Positions 51,666 through 57,687 of a DNA stretch of 64,000 nucleotides are shown here, in pieces (position 1 is the stretch's first letter; each line of letters opens with the position of its first letter). The stretch lies in NCBI RefSeq assembly GCF_027497255.1, contig NZ_CP114903.1:5704001-5768000 (forward strand), given 5' to 3'. Source of the DNA: Micromonospora sp. WMMD882 (GTDB lineage: Bacteria; Actinomycetota; Actinomycetes; Mycobacteriales; Micromonosporaceae). A program made the translations under genes and the position numbers. Under the pieces are notes generated by a model. The model was given only the letters and a program-made list of their open reading frames with translations, searched no databases and was not told the DNA's origin.

Positions 51666-53852
51666 GTGGCGTACTCAGCGGCGGAGCAGGTGCTGGCCGG
51701 GCTCGACGCCGAGCAACGGGCGGCGGTGACCGCGCCGGCCGGCGCGGTCTGCGTGCTGGCCGGCGCGGGCACCGGGAAGACCCGGGCGATCACCTCCCGG
51801 ATCGCCTACCGGGCGCACCGGGGCGAGATCTCCCCCCGGCACGTGCTCGCGGTGACCTTCACCGCCCGCGCCGCCGCCGAGCTGCGCAGCCGGCTCACCA
51901 CGCTGGGGGTGCCCGGCGTGCAGGCCCGCACGTTCCACGCCGCCGCGCTGCGCCAGGTGCGCTACTTCGCGCCCCGGCTGCTGCACGGGCGGGCCATGCC
52001 GGAGCTGCTGGACAGCAAGATCCGGCTGGTCACCCTGGCCGCCGCCCGGGCCGGCCTGCGGACCACCGACCGGGCCGCCGCCCGCGACCTGGCCGGCGAG
52101 CTGGAGTGGGCCAAGTCGTCACTGGTCGAGCCGGGGGAGTACGCGGTGGCCGCGGCGAAGGCGAACCGCGACACGCCGTACGAGCCGGCGAAGGTGGCCG
52201 AGGTCTTCGCCGCGTACGAGACGGTCAAACGGTCCGCCGGGGTGATCGACTTCGAGGACGTGCTCCGCGCGGCGGTCTGGGGGATCGAGGAGCACCCGGA
52301 CGTCGCCGAGCAGGTCCGGGCCCAGTACCGGCACTTCGTGGTGGACGAGTACCAGGACGTCAACCCGTTGCAGCAGCGGCTGCTGGAGGCGTGGCTCGGC
52401 GGCCGGGACGACCTGACCGTGGTCGGCGACGCCAGCCAGACGATCTACTCGTTCACCGGGGCCACCTCGGCGTACCTGGTCGACTTCCCGCGTCGGCGCC
52501 GGGGCGCGACGGTGGTCCGGCTGGTCCGCGACTACCGCTCCACCCCGCAGGTGGTCGGGCTGGCCAACGCGGTGATCGCCCAGGCCCGGGGGACCGAGGC
52601 CCGGCTGCGGCTGGCCCTGGTCGGGCAGCGCCCACCCGGCCCCGAGCCGGAGCTGCGGATCTTCACCGACGAGCCGGCCGAGGCGAACGCGGTCGCCGTC
52701 CGCTGCCGGCAGCTCGTCGCCGCCGGCACCCCGCCCCGGGAGATCGCCGTGCTGTTCCGCGCCAACGCCCAGTCCGAGGCGTACGAGAAGGCGCTGGCCG
52801 AGGCCGGGGTGCCGTACGTGGTGCAGGGGGCGGAGCGCTTCTTCGAGCGCGCCGAGGTGCGGCAGGCGGTGGTGGCGCTGCGCGCGGCGGTGCGCTCGAT
52901 CCCGGGGGAGACCCCGCTGCCGGCCGCCGTGGTCGAGGCGCTCGCCGCGGTCGGCTGGTCCCCGGACGCGCCCCCGCCCGGCGGCGCGGCCCGGGAACGC
53001 TGGGAGGCCCTGGCCGCGCTGGTCGGCCTCGCCGAGGAGTACGCGGCCACGCCCACCGTCCTGCCGATCGGCGAGGCGGCGGCGGTCGAACGGCCGGCGA
53101 CCCTTGCCGACTTCACCGACGAGCTGCGCCGACGGGCCGCGCAGCAGCACGTGCCCACGGTCGACGGGGTGACCCTGGCCTCCCTGCACTCGGCCAAGGG
53201 GCTGGAGTGGGACGCGGTCTTCCTGGTCGGGCTCGCCGAGGGCACCCTGCCCACCGGGTTCGCGAAGACCGTCGAGCAGGTGGAGGAGGAGCGGCGGCTG
53301 CTCTACGTGGGCGTCACCCGGGCTCGCGAGCAGCTCTGGCTGTCGTACGCCTCGGCCCGGTCCCCGGGTGGGCGTCCGCGCCGGCCGTCGCGGTTCCTGC
53401 CGCAGCTCGACCGATCCGGCGGGACGGAGCGCGCCTCGGCCGGCGGTCCGGGTCAGCGGGCCCCGGCCGGCCCGGCCCGACGGGGCGAGCGGCGGCGCGC
53501 CGTGGTGGTGTCCTGCCGGATCTGCGGGGCGACCCTGCTCGCCGGGCCGGACCGCAAGCTCGGCCGCTGCCCGACCTGTCCGTCCGACATCGACGACGAG
53601 CTGCTGGCCCGGTTGCAGGACTGGCGGCAGCGGGTGGCCGGGGCACAGCGGGTCCCGCCGTACGTGGTGTTCACCGACGCGACCCTGACCGCGCTGGCCG
53701 AGCGGCGACCTGGCCGGCCCGAGGAGTTGATAGCCATCGCTGGCATCGGCCCCCGCAAGCTGGGGCTTTACGGCGATTCCGTGCTGGCCCTGGTGGATGG
53801 CGCGCCGGTCGACGCCGTCTGCTCAGAGAAAACTTTGGAAAACCCGTCGTAA
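51666..53852 (+). CDS. uvrD2: ATP-dependent DNA helicase UvrD2
   Basis: 728 aa. SF1A helicase: Walker A AGAGTGKTR (about 32-40), motif II VVDEYQDVN, motif III GDASQTIYSFTGATS, late motifs SLHSAKGLEWDAVFL and LLYVGVTRAREQLW. The C-terminus has the tetracysteine module (SCRICG and CPTCPSD) and an HRDC domain (from about residue 650), the layout that defines mycobacterial UvrD2. GTG at 51666. It is directly upstream of the whiB7 leader on the same strand. Confidence 0.93.
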   Translation: MAYSAAEQVLAGLDAEQRAAVTAPAGAVCVLAGAGTGKTRAITSRIAYRAHRGEISPRHVLAVTFTARAAAELRSRLTTLGVPGVQARTFHAAALRQVRYFAPRLLHGRAMPELLDSKIRLVTLAAARAGLRTTDRAAARDLAGELEWAKSSLVEPGEYAVAAAKANRDTPYEPAKVAEVFAAYETVKRSAGVIDFEDVLRAAVWGIEEHPDVAEQVRAQYRHFVVDEYQDVNPLQQRLLEAWLGGRDDLTVVGDASQTIYSFTGATSAYLVDFPRRRRGATVVRLVRDYRSTPQVVGLANAVIAQARGTEARLRLALVGQRPPGPEPELRIFTDEPAEANAVAVRCRQLVAAGTPPREIAVLFRANAQSEAYEKALAEAGVPYVVQGAERFFERAEVRQAVVALRAAVRSIPGETPLPAAVVEALAAVGWSPDAPPPGGAARERWEALAALVGLAEEYAATPTVLPIGEAAAVERPATLADFTDELRRRAAQQHVPTVDGVTLASLHSAKGLEWDAVFLVGLAEGTLPTGFAKTVEQVEEERRLLYVGVTRAREQLWLSYASARSPGGRPRRPSRFLPQLDRSGGTERASAGGPGQRAPAGPARRGERRRAVVVSCRICGATLLAGPDRKLGRCPTCPSDIDDELLARLQDWRQRVAGAQRVPPYVVFTDATLTALAERRPGRPEELIAIAGIGPRKLGLYGDSVLALVDGAPVDAVCSEKTLENPS

Positions 53853-53981
53853 TTCGTTTGCCCTCGCCTGGTAGGGCGGAATAGCCTCAGGACGCACCTC
53901 GCGAGCGGCACCATCTTCGCTGCTCACGAGGGGCGAGACCCCAGTCGATCACGAGGGCACGTCAGGGAGGAGGTGGCACCG
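53853..53981 (+). promoter_or_regulatory. whiB7 upstream promoter region
   Basis: An A+T-rich stretch (AGAAAACTTTGGAAAA, 53827-53842) precedes TTGCCC (53858-53863) and AATAGC (53880-53885, spacing 16), a weak -35/-10 guess. Mycobacterial WhiB7 acts at promoters with an AT-rich motif just upstream of -35, so autoregulation is plausible. GGGAGGAGG (53965-53973) is the RBS of the leader ORF. Confidence 0.45.
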
Positions 53982-54245
53982 ATGGAGAGCTACGTCTACG
54001 AGCGTCCGACGGCGCTGCCGGCTGCCGTCGTCGCTCCGTTGTCGGCCGTCCGGGCCGCCCTGACCGTCGGGCTCCCGGTTCCGCAGGCGCACCCGATTCA
54101 GGATCAGGCCGAGCTGATGCTGAATGCCGTCGTGCCGACCGGAATCGAGGGGACCAGTGGCTTCACGGGCAAGGGCTTCGCCACCACCGCCATGAAGCGG
54201 CGGCTGGACGCCCGCGGTGTTCCACCTCGAGGGAGACCGGTCTGA
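53982..54245 (+). CDS. Putative whiB7 leader ORF (87 aa)
   Basis: ATG at 53982 with GGAGGAGG 8 bases upstream, so it should be well translated. Sequence begins MESYVYERPTALPAAVVAPL and ends RRLDARGVPPRGRPV. No known domain. Its stop codon (54243-54245) lies inside the left arm of a GGTCTGA/TCAGACC stem, just upstream of a strong intrinsic terminator that precedes whiB7. This is the arrangement expected for a leader peptide controlling whiB7 by ribosome-dependent attenuation, known for mycobacterial whiB7. An independent small gene is the alternative. Confidence 0.7.
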   Translation: MESYVYERPTALPAAVVAPLSAVRAALTVGLPVPQAHPIQDQAELMLNAVVPTGIEGTSGFTGKGFATTAMKRRLDARGVPPRGRPV

Positions 54246-54280
54246 TCTGATCAGACCACCGGCTCACCTCGAGGCCGCGG
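54212..54280 (+). promoter_or_regulatory. Putative whiB7 antiterminator
   Basis: CCTCGAGG occurs at 54225-54232 and 54267-54274 and, being self-complementary, can pair with itself; CCGCGG at 54212-54217 and 54275-54280 extends the stem. GGTCTGA (54239-54245) pairs with TCAGACC (54251-54257) inside. The right arm overlaps the 5' arm of the terminator (54271-54281), so the two structures exclude each other. Confidence 0.65.
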
Positions 54281-54314
54281 AACCCGCTACCGGGATCCGC
54301 GGCCTCAGTTTTTT
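54271..54314 (+). terminator. Intrinsic terminator/attenuator before whiB7
   Basis: GAGGCCGCGGA (54271-54281) pairs with TCCGCGGCCTC (54296-54306); a further CCCG/CGGG stem closes a CTAC loop after one mismatch. A run of six T follows (54309-54314). It is the only textbook T-tract terminator seen in the window, and it lies 69 bases before the whiB7 ATG rather than after a gene, hence an attenuator. Confidence 0.9.
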
Positions 54315-54382
54315 GTTCCGCCGAAGCAAGTACGTCGGTAACACGATCCACGAGATCGAAGTGAGAGAGAGGTGACCGGGCG

Positions 54383-54748
54383 ATGAGTCTGGCCTTGGCT
54401 CCGCTCGACGCGAACGTCGAGCTGGAGGCGAACCTGCCCTGCCGGAAGTTCGACCCCGACCTGTGGTTCTCCGACTCGCCCACCGAGCTGGAACTGGCCA
54501 AGTCGCTCTGCGGGGACTGCCCGCTGCGCGTCGAGTGCCTGGCCGGCGCGGTGGAGCGGGCCGAGCCCTGGGGCGTCTGGGGTGGCGAGATCTTCGAGCG
54601 TGGCGCGGTGGTCCCGCGCAAGCGGCCCCGGGGCCGCCCGCGCAAGGAGGACGTCGCCCGTGACGCCGCCCTGCGGGTCGAGGCCGAGGCGCGACTGGCC
54701 GCCAGTGGGCTGGCCACGTCCCGCAACGCGGTCCGGCTGGCGGCCTGA
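54383..54748 (+). CDS. whiB7: WhiB7-type transcription factor
   Basis: 121 aa. Four cluster cysteines at 20, 43, 46 and 52, the GVWGGE turn at 64-69 and an AT-hook RGRPRK at 83-88: together diagnostic of WhiB7. It is an iron-sulphur protein that binds sigma-A and activates intrinsic antibiotic-resistance genes after ribosome inhibition. ATG at 54383 with GAGAGAGG before it. Expression is probably set by the leader described at 53982-54314. Located after uvrD2, as in mycobacteria. Confidence 0.96.
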   Translation: MSLALAPLDANVELEANLPCRKFDPDLWFSDSPTELELAKSLCGDCPLRVECLAGAVERAEPWGVWGGEIFERGAVVPRKRPRGRPRKEDVARDAALRVEAEARLAASGLATSRNAVRLAA

Positions 54749-54749
54749 C

Positions 54750-55007
54750 ATGAACCCGATCCGCGTCCACGCCGGCGTCGCGCCGGTCGTACGTGAGCTG
54801 ACCACGGGCGTTCCCGCCCTGACCCCGAACCTGCCCGTCCTGAACGGAGCCATCGAGATGCAACTACTCCACGAAGCGTTGTCCCGGGTGCGAATGCCCC
54901 GGCCTCAGGCCGGTCGCAGCACCACGAGCACTGAGGCAACCCGATCCGCCCGTACCGTCGCCATGGCCAGCCGTCAGCGCGCGGCCCGCGAACTGGGCGC
55001 CCTGTAA
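54750..55007 (+). CDS. Small protein downstream of whiB7
   Basis: 85 aa from ATG 54750, which starts two bases after the whiB7 stop region (TGACATG). The second half (MQLLHEALSRVRMPRPQAG and TARTVAM-like basic helix, ending RQRAARELGAL) looks like a compact helical, basic protein, and an internal ATG at 54858 could be the true start. No known domain. Probably co-transcribed with whiB7, so it may be part of the same response. A 14-bp-stem terminator lies at 55072-55104. Confidence 0.65.
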   Translation: MNPIRVHAGVAPVVRELTTGVPALTPNLPVLNGAIEMQLLHEALSRVRMPRPQAGRSTTSTEATRSARTVAMASRQRAARELGAL

Positions 55008-55213: not shown

Positions 55214-56566
55214 TCAGCCCACCGGGGCGAAGCCGGGCAGCCAGCGCTCCAGGATCGCCCGGTACGGGGCCTTCGCCTCCAACTGGCAGAGCACCCCGAT
55301 CGACCCCAGCGTCACCCGGTGGATGAGCAGGTACGACGGCGGCAGGTTGAGCTGCCGGCTCAACTGGTAGGCCGGTGACCGGGGGCTGGCCAGCCGGGTC
55401 GCCTCGGCCCGCAGCCAGGCGCGGCTGAACTGGAACTCCTCGGTGGCCACCGGGTCCAGCATCGGCCGGACGAAGTCCAGCACGGCCTGCGCGTCGATCG
55501 GCTCGTCGGCCGGGACGAATCCCTCCGTCCGCAGCCCGTCCACCACGGCTTCCGCCTCGCCCCGCAGGGCCAGCCCGGCCAGCCGGCCGATCGGCTCGGG
55601 GGTGCCCTCGGGCAGCCGGGCCACCGCGCCGAAGTCGATCACGCCGAGCCGGCCGTCGGGCAGGATCCGGAAGTTTCCCGGGTGCGGGTCGGCGTGCAGC
55701 AGCCCGGCCCGGGCCGGCGCGGAGAGGTGCAGGGTGGCCATCAGCCGGCCGGCCTCGTCGCGCTGCTCCGGCGTGCCCGCCCGGATGATCTCGGCCAGCG
55801 GGGTGCCGTCCACCCAGTCGGTCACCAGCACCCGGGGCGCGGCGGCGACCACCGCCGGAATGAAGATCTCCGGGTCGTCGGCGTACGCGGCGGCGAAGGC
55901 GCGCTGCGACTCCGCCTCCAGCTCGTAGTCGAGCTCCTCGGTGATCCGCTCCCGCAACTCGGCGAGCAGCGGCTTGACGTCCAGGCCGGGCTGGATCGCC
56001 CGGAACATGGCGCTCAGCCGGGAGAGCTGCTTCAGGTCGGCGAGCAGGGCGTCACCCGCGCCCGGGTACTGGATCTTGACGGCCACCGGGCGGCCGGTCG
56101 GAGCGGCCGTCTTCCGGCGGCCGGCCGGACGTTCCCGCCACACCGCCCGGTGCACCTGGCCGATGCTCGCGGCGGCGGCGGGGGTGTCGTCGAACTCCAG
56201 GAACCGGTCCCGCCACTGCGGGCCGAGCTGCTCGGCGAGCACCTTGTGCACCGAGGCGGCGGGCAGCGGCGGGGCCGCCTCCTGCAACTTCGTCAACGCC
56301 TGCCGGTACGGGGCGGCGACCTCCTCGGGGAGGGCGGCCTCGAACACCGACAGCGCCTGCCCGAACTTCATCGCCCCGCCCTTGAGCTGACCCAGCACGC
56401 TGAAGAGCTGTTCGGCGGTGCGCTGCTGGATCTCGGCGGAGATCACCTCGGAGGCGAGCCCGGTGACGCGCTTACCCATGCCGAGGACGGTGCGTCCGGC
56501 GAAGCCGAGCGGCAGTGCGGCGAGCTTGGCGGTCCGGGACACGGCCCGGCGCGGGATATCGGTCAC
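55214..56566 (-). CDS. ABC1/UbiB-type atypical kinase
   Basis: 450 aa. Family motifs: KxGQ (GAMKFGQAL), the Ala-rich loop AAASIGQVHRAV, VAVKIQYPG with the nucleotide-binding Lys, HADPHPGNF and IDFGAVARL. ABC1 proteins bind ATP with an Ala-rich instead of Gly-rich loop and support lipid or quinone metabolism. It corresponds to Rv3197, next to whiB7 in mycobacteria. GTG 56566 overlaps the stop of the E1-like gene upstream (GTGA), so the two are coupled. Confidence 0.9.
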   Translation of the reverse strand: MTDIPRRAVSRTAKLAALPLGFAGRTVLGMGKRVTGLASEVISAEIQQRTAEQLFSVLGQLKGGAMKFGQALSVFEAALPEEVAAPYRQALTKLQEAAPPLPAASVHKVLAEQLGPQWRDRFLEFDDTPAAAASIGQVHRAVWRERPAGRRKTAAPTGRPVAVKIQYPGAGDALLADLKQLSRLSAMFRAIQPGLDVKPLLAELRERITEELDYELEAESQRAFAAAYADDPEIFIPAVVAAAPRVLVTDWVDGTPLAEIIRAGTPEQRDEAGRLMATLHLSAPARAGLLHADPHPGNFRILPDGRLGVIDFGAVARLPEGTPEPIGRLAGLALRGEAEAVVDGLRTEGFVPADEPIDAQAVLDFVRPMLDPVATEEFQFSRAWLRAEATRLASPRSPAYQLSRQLNLPPSYLLIHRVTLGSIGVLCQLEAKAPYRAILERWLPGFAPVG

Positions 56567-57687
56567 CCGGCCATTGTTACCGACTCGACCGTGCCCTTGC
56601 TGCGGTGCGGCCCGGCCGGGACCCGGTGCGGGGGCCATCGTCCCGTTCGACCGCAGTCACAGCCGTGATGTGGTGGCCAGGCGCGTCGGCGGAACCGCCC
56701 GGCCCCGACGATCTCGACGGCCGTCCCGACCGTCTCCACCGGGCCGCCCGACAGGTGGGCGAGCGCCTCGGCGGTGGCGACGGCCACGGCGGCGAGCAGG
56801 GTGGTCACGCCACAGGCGGACGGCGGGTCGGTGGCGGCGAGCTGGGCGGCCAGCCCGGCCCAACCCGGGTCGCGGTCCGTCCGGTGCAGGTCGAGACAGT
56901 TGAGGCAGGGCCCGACGGGCGGACGCACCAGCGGGCCGACCACCGGGACGCCGTCCCGCAGGGCGACCAGCAGGTGCGGCTGGCGGCGGCGGGCGTACCC
57001 GGCGGCCAGCAGGGCGGCCGGCCGGTCGGCGCCCACCTGGACCACCAGGTCGGCGCGGCGACGGCGGACCGGGCCGGTCAGCGTGTCCGGGGCGCTGCGG
57101 GCTATCGCGTCGACCACCGCGTCGGCGGTGTGCCGGCCGACGTCATCCGGCAGGAGCCCGGAGCCGGCCAGGTCGGCCGGCCGGACCAGGCCGCGCAGGT
57201 CCGGGTCGACGTGCCCCACGCCGGCCTGGGCCAACGCGACGGCGATCGGCCCGCCCAGCCGGCCGGCGCCGGTGACCACCACCCGGGAGGCGCGGCGACG
57301 ACGCAACGCCTGGGCCGGGGTGCCGGTCGCCTCGGTCGCGCCGAGGGCGAGGGCGTCCGCCTCGTCGACGAGGCGGGCCCGCGTCGGCTCGGCGAGGTTG
57401 GCGGGCAGCAGCGTGTGCGCGGGGACCACCAGCCCGGCCGCCCGGAGGGCCGCCAGCAGGGTCCGCGCGTCGTCCGGGTCGACCCGGAGCCGGTGGGCCC
57501 GGTCGAGGACGTCCCGCTCGCTGTGCGTGCCGTCGAGCAGGTCGAGCAGGAGTACGGCCCGCGGGTTGGCCACCTCGACCAGCACCGCCCGGGTGGAGTC
57601 GAGGCCGAGTTGCAGGGTGTGCCGGTCCCGCCAGAGCCGGGTGAGGCCGGGCAGCAGGGTCGGCCGGAGAAGTGTGGCACGGGTCAT
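56563..57687 (-). CDS. E1/ThiF-like protein with RRE-like N-terminal domain
   Basis: 374 aa. About residues 1-85 resemble the peptide-binding (RRE) domain seen in TOMM-type cyclodehydratase partner proteins (LWRDRHTLQLGLDSTRAVLV). Then comes a ThiF-like nucleotide fold with GAGRLGG. Zinc-type cysteines are CLNCL and CDCG. No clear adenylation Arg/Asp set or catalytic Cys was found. Same position as Rv3196 next to the ABC1 kinase. Start ATG 57687; GTG 57693 possible. No precursor peptide or YcaO partner is nearby. Confidence 0.75.
   Translation of the reverse strand: MTRATLLRPTLLPGLTRLWRDRHTLQLGLDSTRAVLVEVANPRAVLLLDLLDGTHSERDVLDRAHRLRVDPDDARTLLAALRAAGLVVPAHTLLPANLAEPTRARLVDEADALALGATEATGTPAQALRRRRASRVVVTGAGRLGGPIAVALAQAGVGHVDPDLRGLVRPADLAGSGLLPDDVGRHTADAVVDAIARSAPDTLTGPVRRRRADLVVQVGADRPAALLAAGYARRRQPHLLVALRDGVPVVGPLVRPPVGPCLNCLDLHRTDRDPGWAGLAAQLAATDPPSACGVTTLLAAVAVATAEALAHLSGGPVETVGTAVEIVGAGRFRRRAWPPHHGCDCGRTGRWPPHRVPAGPHRSKGTVESVTMAG

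Follow-up and report, generated by a model that had tools for sequence, protein, structure and literature searches.

How does the long leader in front of whiB7 in Micromonospora sp. WMMD882 decide whether RNA polymerase reaches the gene? We addressed this question in a 64,000-nucleotide stretch of the genome (the window, to which all positions refer), starting from a sequence-only reading that had proposed translation-coupled attenuation, in which a ribosome bound at the stop codon of an upstream ORF (uORF) covers the 5' strands of an antiterminator. We conclude that the leader is very probably a uORF-controlled transcription attenuator of the whiB7/wblC type. The gene order in the window is UvrD/HRDC helicase, leader, whiB7, small ORF, ABC1 kinase, and the relevant features are as follows.

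51666-53852, upstream of the leader: UvrD/HRDC helicase gene (ORF list and Pfam).
53849-53887, forward strand: WhiB7-type promoter, composed of AT-rich GTAATT (53849-53854), 3 bp, -35 element TTGCCC (53858-53863), 18 bp and -10 element TAGCCT (53882-53887).
53968-53976, forward strand: uORF Shine-Dalgarno sequence AGGAGGTGG, near-perfect, with an anti-SD duplex of -13.0 kcal/mol.
53982-54245, forward strand: uORF of 87 codons plus TGA (ATG, 53982-53984; TGA, 54243-54245).
54214-54223, forward strand: predicted antiterminator helix P3, 5' strand GCGG.GUUCC (pairs at 54214-54217 and 54219-54223), in uORF codons about -11 to -8.
54225-54235, forward strand: predicted antiterminator helix P2, 5' strand CCUCGAGG-GAG (predicted fold, strand-swap test and alignment).
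54237-54262, forward strand: predicted antiterminator apical hairpin P1, carrying the uORF stop 54243-54245 (predicted fold and strand-swap test).
54263-54274, forward strand: predicted P2, 3' strand CUC-A-CCUCGAGG (predicted fold).
54279-54287, forward strand: predicted P3, 3' strand GGAACCCGC, identical with the loop-proximal 5' strand of the terminator (predicted fold and strand-swap test).
54271-54314, forward strand: predicted intrinsic terminator, pairing 54271-54281 with 54296-54306 and 54283-54286 with 54291-54294, with a U-tract at 54309-54314.
54369-54379, forward strand: whiB7 ribosome-binding site GAGGTGACCGG (sequence).
54383-54748, forward strand: whiB7, encoding a WhiB-family regulator of 121 aa (Pfam PF02467, Whib, E 1.5e-13).
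54750-55007, forward strand: small ORF of 85 aa, whose first base lies 1 nt past the whiB7 stop codon.
55214-56638, opposite strand to whiB7 and downstream of it: ABC1-family kinase gene (Pfam).

The whiB7 product has four cysteines, a GVWGG motif and an AT-hook-like RGRPRK motif, which we take to be a mark of WhiB7, and the helicase gene is presumably uvrD2. Given its position directly behind the leader, whiB7 would be the target of the control. The 85-aa ORF gave no Pfam or NCBIfam match; of the 41 leaders inspected, 29, the window's own among them, are followed by its C-terminal half (HEALSRARMRRPQAG..) downstream of whiB7. We also observed a hairpin, CGATC-CACGA-GATCG at 54344-54358, directly 5' of the whiB7 ribosome-binding site, which by eye has a likeness in some relatives.

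We then looked into the promoter. According to the available text of PMC7157823, the WblC motif GAAAWY lies 3 nt before the -35 element, and the spacing is 16 to 19. By its sequence, the leader has an AT-rich element at this place, GTAATT, that departs from GAAAWY at one base, and transcription would be expected to start near 53894. A WhiB7-type promoter pattern was present in 31 of the 39 leaders tried, 28 of these with a TTGC -35 element and a spacing of 17 or 18 bp.

The good ribosome-binding site and the 87-codon ORF upstream of whiB7 that the sequence-only reading had described were borne out, with correct coordinates, and the uORF with its own ribosome-binding site thus lies between promoter and whiB7. 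Its stop is 27 nt from the terminator arm. The sequences on which the proposed structure had been built were all present: GGTCTGA (54239-54245), which holds the stop, and TCAGACC (54251-54257); CCGCGG in duplicate (54212-54217 and 54275-54280); CCTCGAGG in duplicate (54225-54232 and 54267-54274); and a terminator T-tract, TTTTTT at 54309-54314. Folding predictions gave the leader an intrinsic terminator between uORF and whiB7, and an antiterminator composed of uORF sequence and the 5' arm of the terminator. The terminator fold reached -32.8 kcal/mol (z -6.9) and the segment 54205-54282 reached -43.1 kcal/mol (z -4.5), values that 0/1000 dinucleotide shuffles equalled in either case.

To follow the choice between these folds, we folded the growing RNA with two different 5' ends. 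From an RNA end at 54286 up to 54295-54298, the minimum free energy (MFE) structure was one long hairpin, P1+P2+P3. Once the end had reached 54298-54301, the exact point varying with the 5' end used, the terminator was the MFE structure, and this crossover corresponds approximately to the RNA end when the polymerase stands at the U-tract. By an end at 54307, the terminator had displaced P3 wholly, together with the lower P2 pairs, while P1 and upper P2 stayed. In the complete free leader, the terminator wins at equilibrium (-63.5 kcal/mol, P1 kept). Free RNA would therefore not come to rest in the antiterminator, as had been assumed: equilibrium favors the terminator and timing would decide, so that antitermination must be kinetic, a matter of which helix forms first. 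GGAACCCGC also serves the terminator as its inner 5' strand, so that P3 would block the site from which the terminator hairpin begins to form.

P3 also takes the place of the outer helix proposed earlier, CCGCGG with CCGCGG. We exchanged 5' and 3' strands between species and asked how much better cognate strands pair. P1 (z -12.9, 146 distinct pairs), P2 (z -10.6, 83 pairs) and P3 (z -10.5, 122 pairs) gave strong signals, each with 0/5000 permutations as good (relatedness ignored), whereas CCGCGG/CCGCGG was the weakest of the four helices tested (z -3.2, 105 pairs, 6/5000 permutations as good) and had no excess covariation (score 0.061 versus 0.066 in shuffles). We rejected it as the main outer helix; it does appear in the optimal structure of a shorter RNA that ends at 54282. 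As for the stop, it does lie inside the antiterminator, near its tip, but its pairing is not the conserved feature, as no more than 21 of the 51 divergent leaders had 2 or 3 of its 3 nucleotides paired.

These leaders come from a survey of relatives. The whiB7 search matched in 61/61 genomes of the genus, 117/121 of the family, 115/121 of the order and 119/148 of the class. One genome of the same order (G272) had four whiB7-like matches. We collected 205 whiB7 loci, a part of all matches, of which 203 have the WhiB7 motif and three places were entered twice. A uORF stop of the expected form and a terminator arm were found in 187 of the 203; the stop rule failed in 16 loci (13 places), including 8 of Glycomyces and 4 with a uORF stop 14 to 26 nt before the arm. 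From the 187 we selected a divergent set of 51 leaders, each at least 14% different (mutual identity at most 86%).

In predicted folds of the RNA before the terminator 3' arm, uORF sequence and the terminator-arm region are connected by 9 or more pairs in 51/51 divergent leaders. P3 has at least 5 bp in 51/51 and P2 in 50/51, and the antiterminator fold has a median z of -4.2, below -2 in 49/51. Covariation in relatives, proposed earlier as a check, was clear for the terminator, with 95.0% of cells paired and two-sided changes in 8 of 15 pairs, versus a shuffled mean of 1.6 (0/500 shuffles; 51 leaders). It was mixed for the antiterminator in a column alignment of 22 leaders, where two-sided changes (8 pairs versus 3.6 ± 1.3, 0/500) and the covariation score (0.068, 7/500 as high) supported the structure, but cells paired (29/500) added little and further pair types (201/500) nothing. 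P3 cells were 77% paired in this alignment and P1 cells 55%, the apical hairpin being poorly aligned. Helices replaced as a whole can be read directly: GGGATC/GATCCC in leader L172, GTCCGC/GCGGAC in L192 and L195, and CTTCGAGG against CCTCGAAG in L073. Among named relatives (the best 80 of 144 loci), a simple finder located terminator and uORF in 73 and none in 7. Of the 73, 66 lock at least 5 bp, including Mycobacterium, Rhodococcus, Amycolatopsis and Saccharopolyspora, and 7 lock fewer than 5 bp, 5 of them Pseudonocardia.

The structure is covered by no Rfam family: there were 0 matches in the window above the gathering threshold, and a relaxed threshold gave a single match (18.8 bits, E 0.18) to an implausible human family. 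We built a covariance model from the 51 divergent leaders and scored the 150 best first-look candidates per genus genome. One strong match per genome (96 to 108 bits), at whiB7, was obtained in 21/21 genus genomes, and among these candidates there was no second strong match that would indicate reuse of the element at other genes. The 28 further matches were all at or below 37 bits, 21 of them on the opposite strand of the whiB7 terminator itself. At phylum level, 17/100 genomes matched, 4 above 50 bits, which indicates that the model reaches distant or mycobacterial-type leaders poorly.

The same RNA might also act on translation. A ribosome positioned on the uORF stop would free the strand CCGGCUCACCUC (54259-54270), which could then pair with the whiB7 ribosome-binding site GAGGUGACCGG (54369-54379) and leave leaked transcripts untranslated; the antiterminator would hide the CCGGCUCACCUC strand and so free whiB7. 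This duplex has 11 bp with one bulge; its energy is -20.5 kcal/mol, both in the window and for most of the Micromonosporaceae listed. The strand pairs with the whiB7 site more strongly than with the uORF site in 147/185 leaders, and of the 78 ORF starts predicted for the window, that of whiB7 ranks third. However, any anti-SD-like strand pairs with any Shine-Dalgarno sequence, and GAGGTGACCGG occurs 69 times in the genome, counting both strands. Outside the family, the uORF site is often an equal or better partner, the cognate advantage is small (z -4.4, relatedness ignored), and the 54259-54270 strand is bound inside P1/P2 in the full-length fold too. We consider such a second lock, with its consequence for leaked transcripts, unlikely. 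A pairing of the uORF ribosome-binding site with the uORF tail, which we also tried, had no cognate advantage (z +0.5) and was discarded.

We then analyzed the uORF itself. The 187 leaders had been chosen by their stop, and starts were picked by Shine-Dalgarno strength, a few leaders ending at contig ends; with this procedure an in-frame start codon was found in 186/187 (the exception being L135). The 186 uORFs have a median length of 86 codons (5th to 95th percentile, 69 to 138) and a median anti-SD energy of -11.8 kcal/mol (-8 or better in 170/186). Whatever the uORF length, the stop precedes the terminator arm by 24.8 ± 2.1 nt (range 19 to 32; 186 leaders, one locus at 44 excluded). The body is close to neutral: 534 close pairs among 58 genus uORFs gave a pN of 0.103, a pS of 0.138 and a pN/pS of 0.74, compared to a pN/pS of 0.106 for whiB7, and differences are evenly spread over the codon positions (0.29/0.34/0.38). 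Peptide-level selection on the whole body is ruled out by this value. Two blocks of the uORF, at about 54081-54116 and 54150-54170, are kept as nucleotides in Micromonospora and near genera, around CAC CAG GTC .. CAG GCC GAG CTG and GGG ACC AGT GGC TTC ACG GGC in relatives, and one serine position in them is AGT in 71/71 codons. RNAalifold on 64 leaders returned just a 3-bp helix, in the first of these blocks.

The near-invariant tail of the uORF, GVPPRGRPV followed by the stop, could belong to an arrest peptide whose amino-acid sequence is what detects drugs or holds the ribosome; PP and RGR are stalling motifs, and 127/203 leaders have a PPRG[RK]P tail. In these 127, selected by that tail, it is the nucleotides that are fixed rather than the residues (CGA in 127/127, CCT in 126/127, CCG in 126/127). 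Moreover, where Gly gives way to Ser at the fourth codon before the stop, the 3' strand changes to match (CCTCGAAG / CTTCGAGG), and other clades have different tails (WSPPV, LGPPV, DRGST and CRPR, each ahead of the stop), yet a like fold. We found no nascent-peptide residues conserved independently of the RNA in these leaders, and an arrest peptide appears very improbable. Sequence comparison instead indicates that the tail is constrained as RNA and the body nearly unconstrained, such that frame and length of the uORF matter and the peptide hardly.

This freedom of the body also bears on a classical attenuator that reports one amino acid, for example alanine. Alanine makes up 18.4% of the uORF body versus 12.1% in shuffles, and second-hand accounts in the literature tie whiB7 to alanine starvation in mycobacteria. 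Yet the body is not conserved, no conserved single-codon run lies beside the antiterminator, and no codon cluster of the kind used by amino-acid biosynthetic attenuators was found before it, so that we give this explanation very little weight. Weakest of all, and hardly tenable, is an ordinary small protein gene with the hairpins as its mere terminator, since the strong ribosome-binding site of its own, the conserved frame and the protein-like length are outweighed by the near-neutral body, the absence of any Pfam or NCBIfam match for the uORF and an alternative structure predicted in 51/51 leaders.

An attenuator read by the ribosome is, in contrast, what published work on relatives describes. 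Attenuation of whiB7/wblC by a uORF, a terminator and an antiterminator is established, as far as the available portions of the articles go (PMC10727445, PMC9618640, PMC13393426, PMC13236596, PMC11550727 and PMC4128351, the last being Dinan et al. 2014), and the central account, as cited by later papers, is that of Lee, Lee and Roe 2022 (doi 10.1111/mmi.14834). The known device, as outlined there, shares with ours the gene, the order uORF-terminator-whiB7, an antiterminator overlapping uORF and terminator, and an autoregulated promoter; what differs is the Micromonosporaceae sequence. The novelty claimed earlier for the long ORF and its overlap does not hold, as the device is the same and 87 codons are close to the median of 86. 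In the titles and beginnings of abstracts of the literature searched, we found no Micromonospora whiB7 leader. What changes with respect to the sequence-only reading is the detail, such as the P3 outer helix, which the group comparison gives as the better structure; the device itself is known from relatives. Two further systems are similar in part, judging from the available text. The ilvB1 attenuator of Mycobacterium tuberculosis (PMC13236596) shares the uORF stop, ribosome masking and the choice between terminator and antiterminator, but has a short leader with a regulatory codon cluster (LVVI) that the window uORF lacks. The Streptomyces ARE-ABCF attenuators are5sc and tiaA (PMC12421871) share antibiotic-responsive uORF attenuation in actinomycetes, but their uORFs have 3 to 9 codons and stall the ribosome at the start codon, whereas the whiB7 uORF has 80 to 100 codons and a stall anywhere should count.

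We therefore return to the uORF-controlled attenuator. The widely conserved ORF, its strong ribosome-binding site and its constant spacing are observed directly and the alternative structures are predicted; from these we infer ribosome positions, kinetics, termination and induction by drugs as follows. RNA polymerase would start near 53894 and a ribosome would load on the uORF. A ribosome that keeps pace up to the stop (54243-54245) would cover P1 and most of the P2 5' strand, so that the antiterminator could not zip; the 27-nt spacing implies that it would at the same time leave the terminator arm free. For this coverage we used the known size of the ribosome footprint. With the antiterminator blocked, the terminator (54271-54306 plus U6) would form and whiB7 would be off. 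Were the ribosome delayed or halted at any of the 80-odd codons before the stop, P1, P2 and P3 would have their 5' strands free and would zip once 54279-54287 emerges. This would lock the terminator's 5' arm on its loop-proximal side, and polymerase would read on into whiB7. The mechanism proposed by the sequence-only reading fits the anatomy, the conservation and the published whiB7/wblC work; its outer helix, its equilibrium assumption and its novelty did not stand. Since the body is nearly free to change its amino acids, whereas its reading frame and length persist, what the uORF gauges is most likely translation in general, not a single peptide or amino acid. It looks like a general elongation meter rather than an arrest peptide.

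We then examined the Glycomyces loci in which the stop rule had failed. We take the genus to be Glycomyces, which belongs to the same family as the window, because the leader tail of one of these loci (L330) is the same as in Glycomyces albidus (L280). whiB7 was found in 22/22 Glycomyces genomes (L327 to L348), with antiterminator and terminator intact (predicted antiterminator, -42 to -54 kcal/mol). The uORF, though, runs through the whole terminator in 16/22; its stop falls right at the border of the arm in L346 and at most 3 codons behind a TTA codon in 4/22, and L334 has TGA at the TTA position. Exactly one TTA upstream of the terminator, in frame and in the place of the stop near the antiterminator tip, is present in 21/22 genomes. 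It ends 23 to 29 nt before the terminator (mean 26.0 ± 1.9 over the 22 leaders, TGA included, versus 24.8 ± 2.1 for stops elsewhere). TTA accounts for 21/2404 codons in the Glycomyces uORFs, 0/17,576 codons in the other 186 uORFs and 0/942 leucine codons in the upstream gene and whiB7 of the same 22 genomes; a cruder count, which includes other long frames and possibly a uORF-whiB7 fusion in L327, gave 9 TTA in 1380 leucine codons. In L327 (genome G070), the stopless uORF frame passes the terminator and continues in frame into whiB7, a possible fusion of 282 codons.

The distance from the PPR codons to TTA or TGA is 24 or 27 nt and in frame in 22/22 Glycomyces leaders, and the spacing after TTA or TGA is spread over the three frames (6, 6 and 10), like that behind true stops (66, 66 and 54). 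The frame being kept up to TTA and lost after it, the coding part of the Glycomyces uORF in effect ends there. TTA as an unassigned codon is ruled out by a tRNA-Leu(taa) gene, present once in G165 (L387), the 1 of 22 genomes checked. Alternatively, TTA could be fixed by pairing in the hairpin alone, and its first two bases are indeed paired in 22/22 predicted folds (L334 with TGA included); against this, the third base, A, is unpaired in 17/22 folds and yet invariant. We tentatively propose, at slightly less than even confidence, that in Glycomyces the rare sense codon TTA took over from the uORF stop as the site at which a parked ribosome covers the antiterminator. The variant may have a single origin within one genus, and titles and opening lines of abstracts in the literature searched contained no mention of it.

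The combination of conserved frame, length, ribosome-binding site and spacing with a free peptide offers a simple explanation of why WhiB7 responds to ribosome drugs of very different kinds as well as to a shortage of amino acids: the uORF would report whether the ribosome keeps pace with the polymerase over some 80 to 100 codons. Glycomyces, in turn, offers a natural test case for the parking step. If ribosomes do park at TTA, a sense-codon pause can do the job of a stop codon in an attenuator, and whiB7 would respond both to upstream stalling of the ribosome and to the supply of a bldA-type tRNA-Leu(UAA); a ribosome passing TTA would enter the terminator arm and likewise turn whiB7 on. Control of the bldA type is known from streptomycete development and antibiotic production, and parking at TTA, if real, would unite it with attenuation in one RNA.
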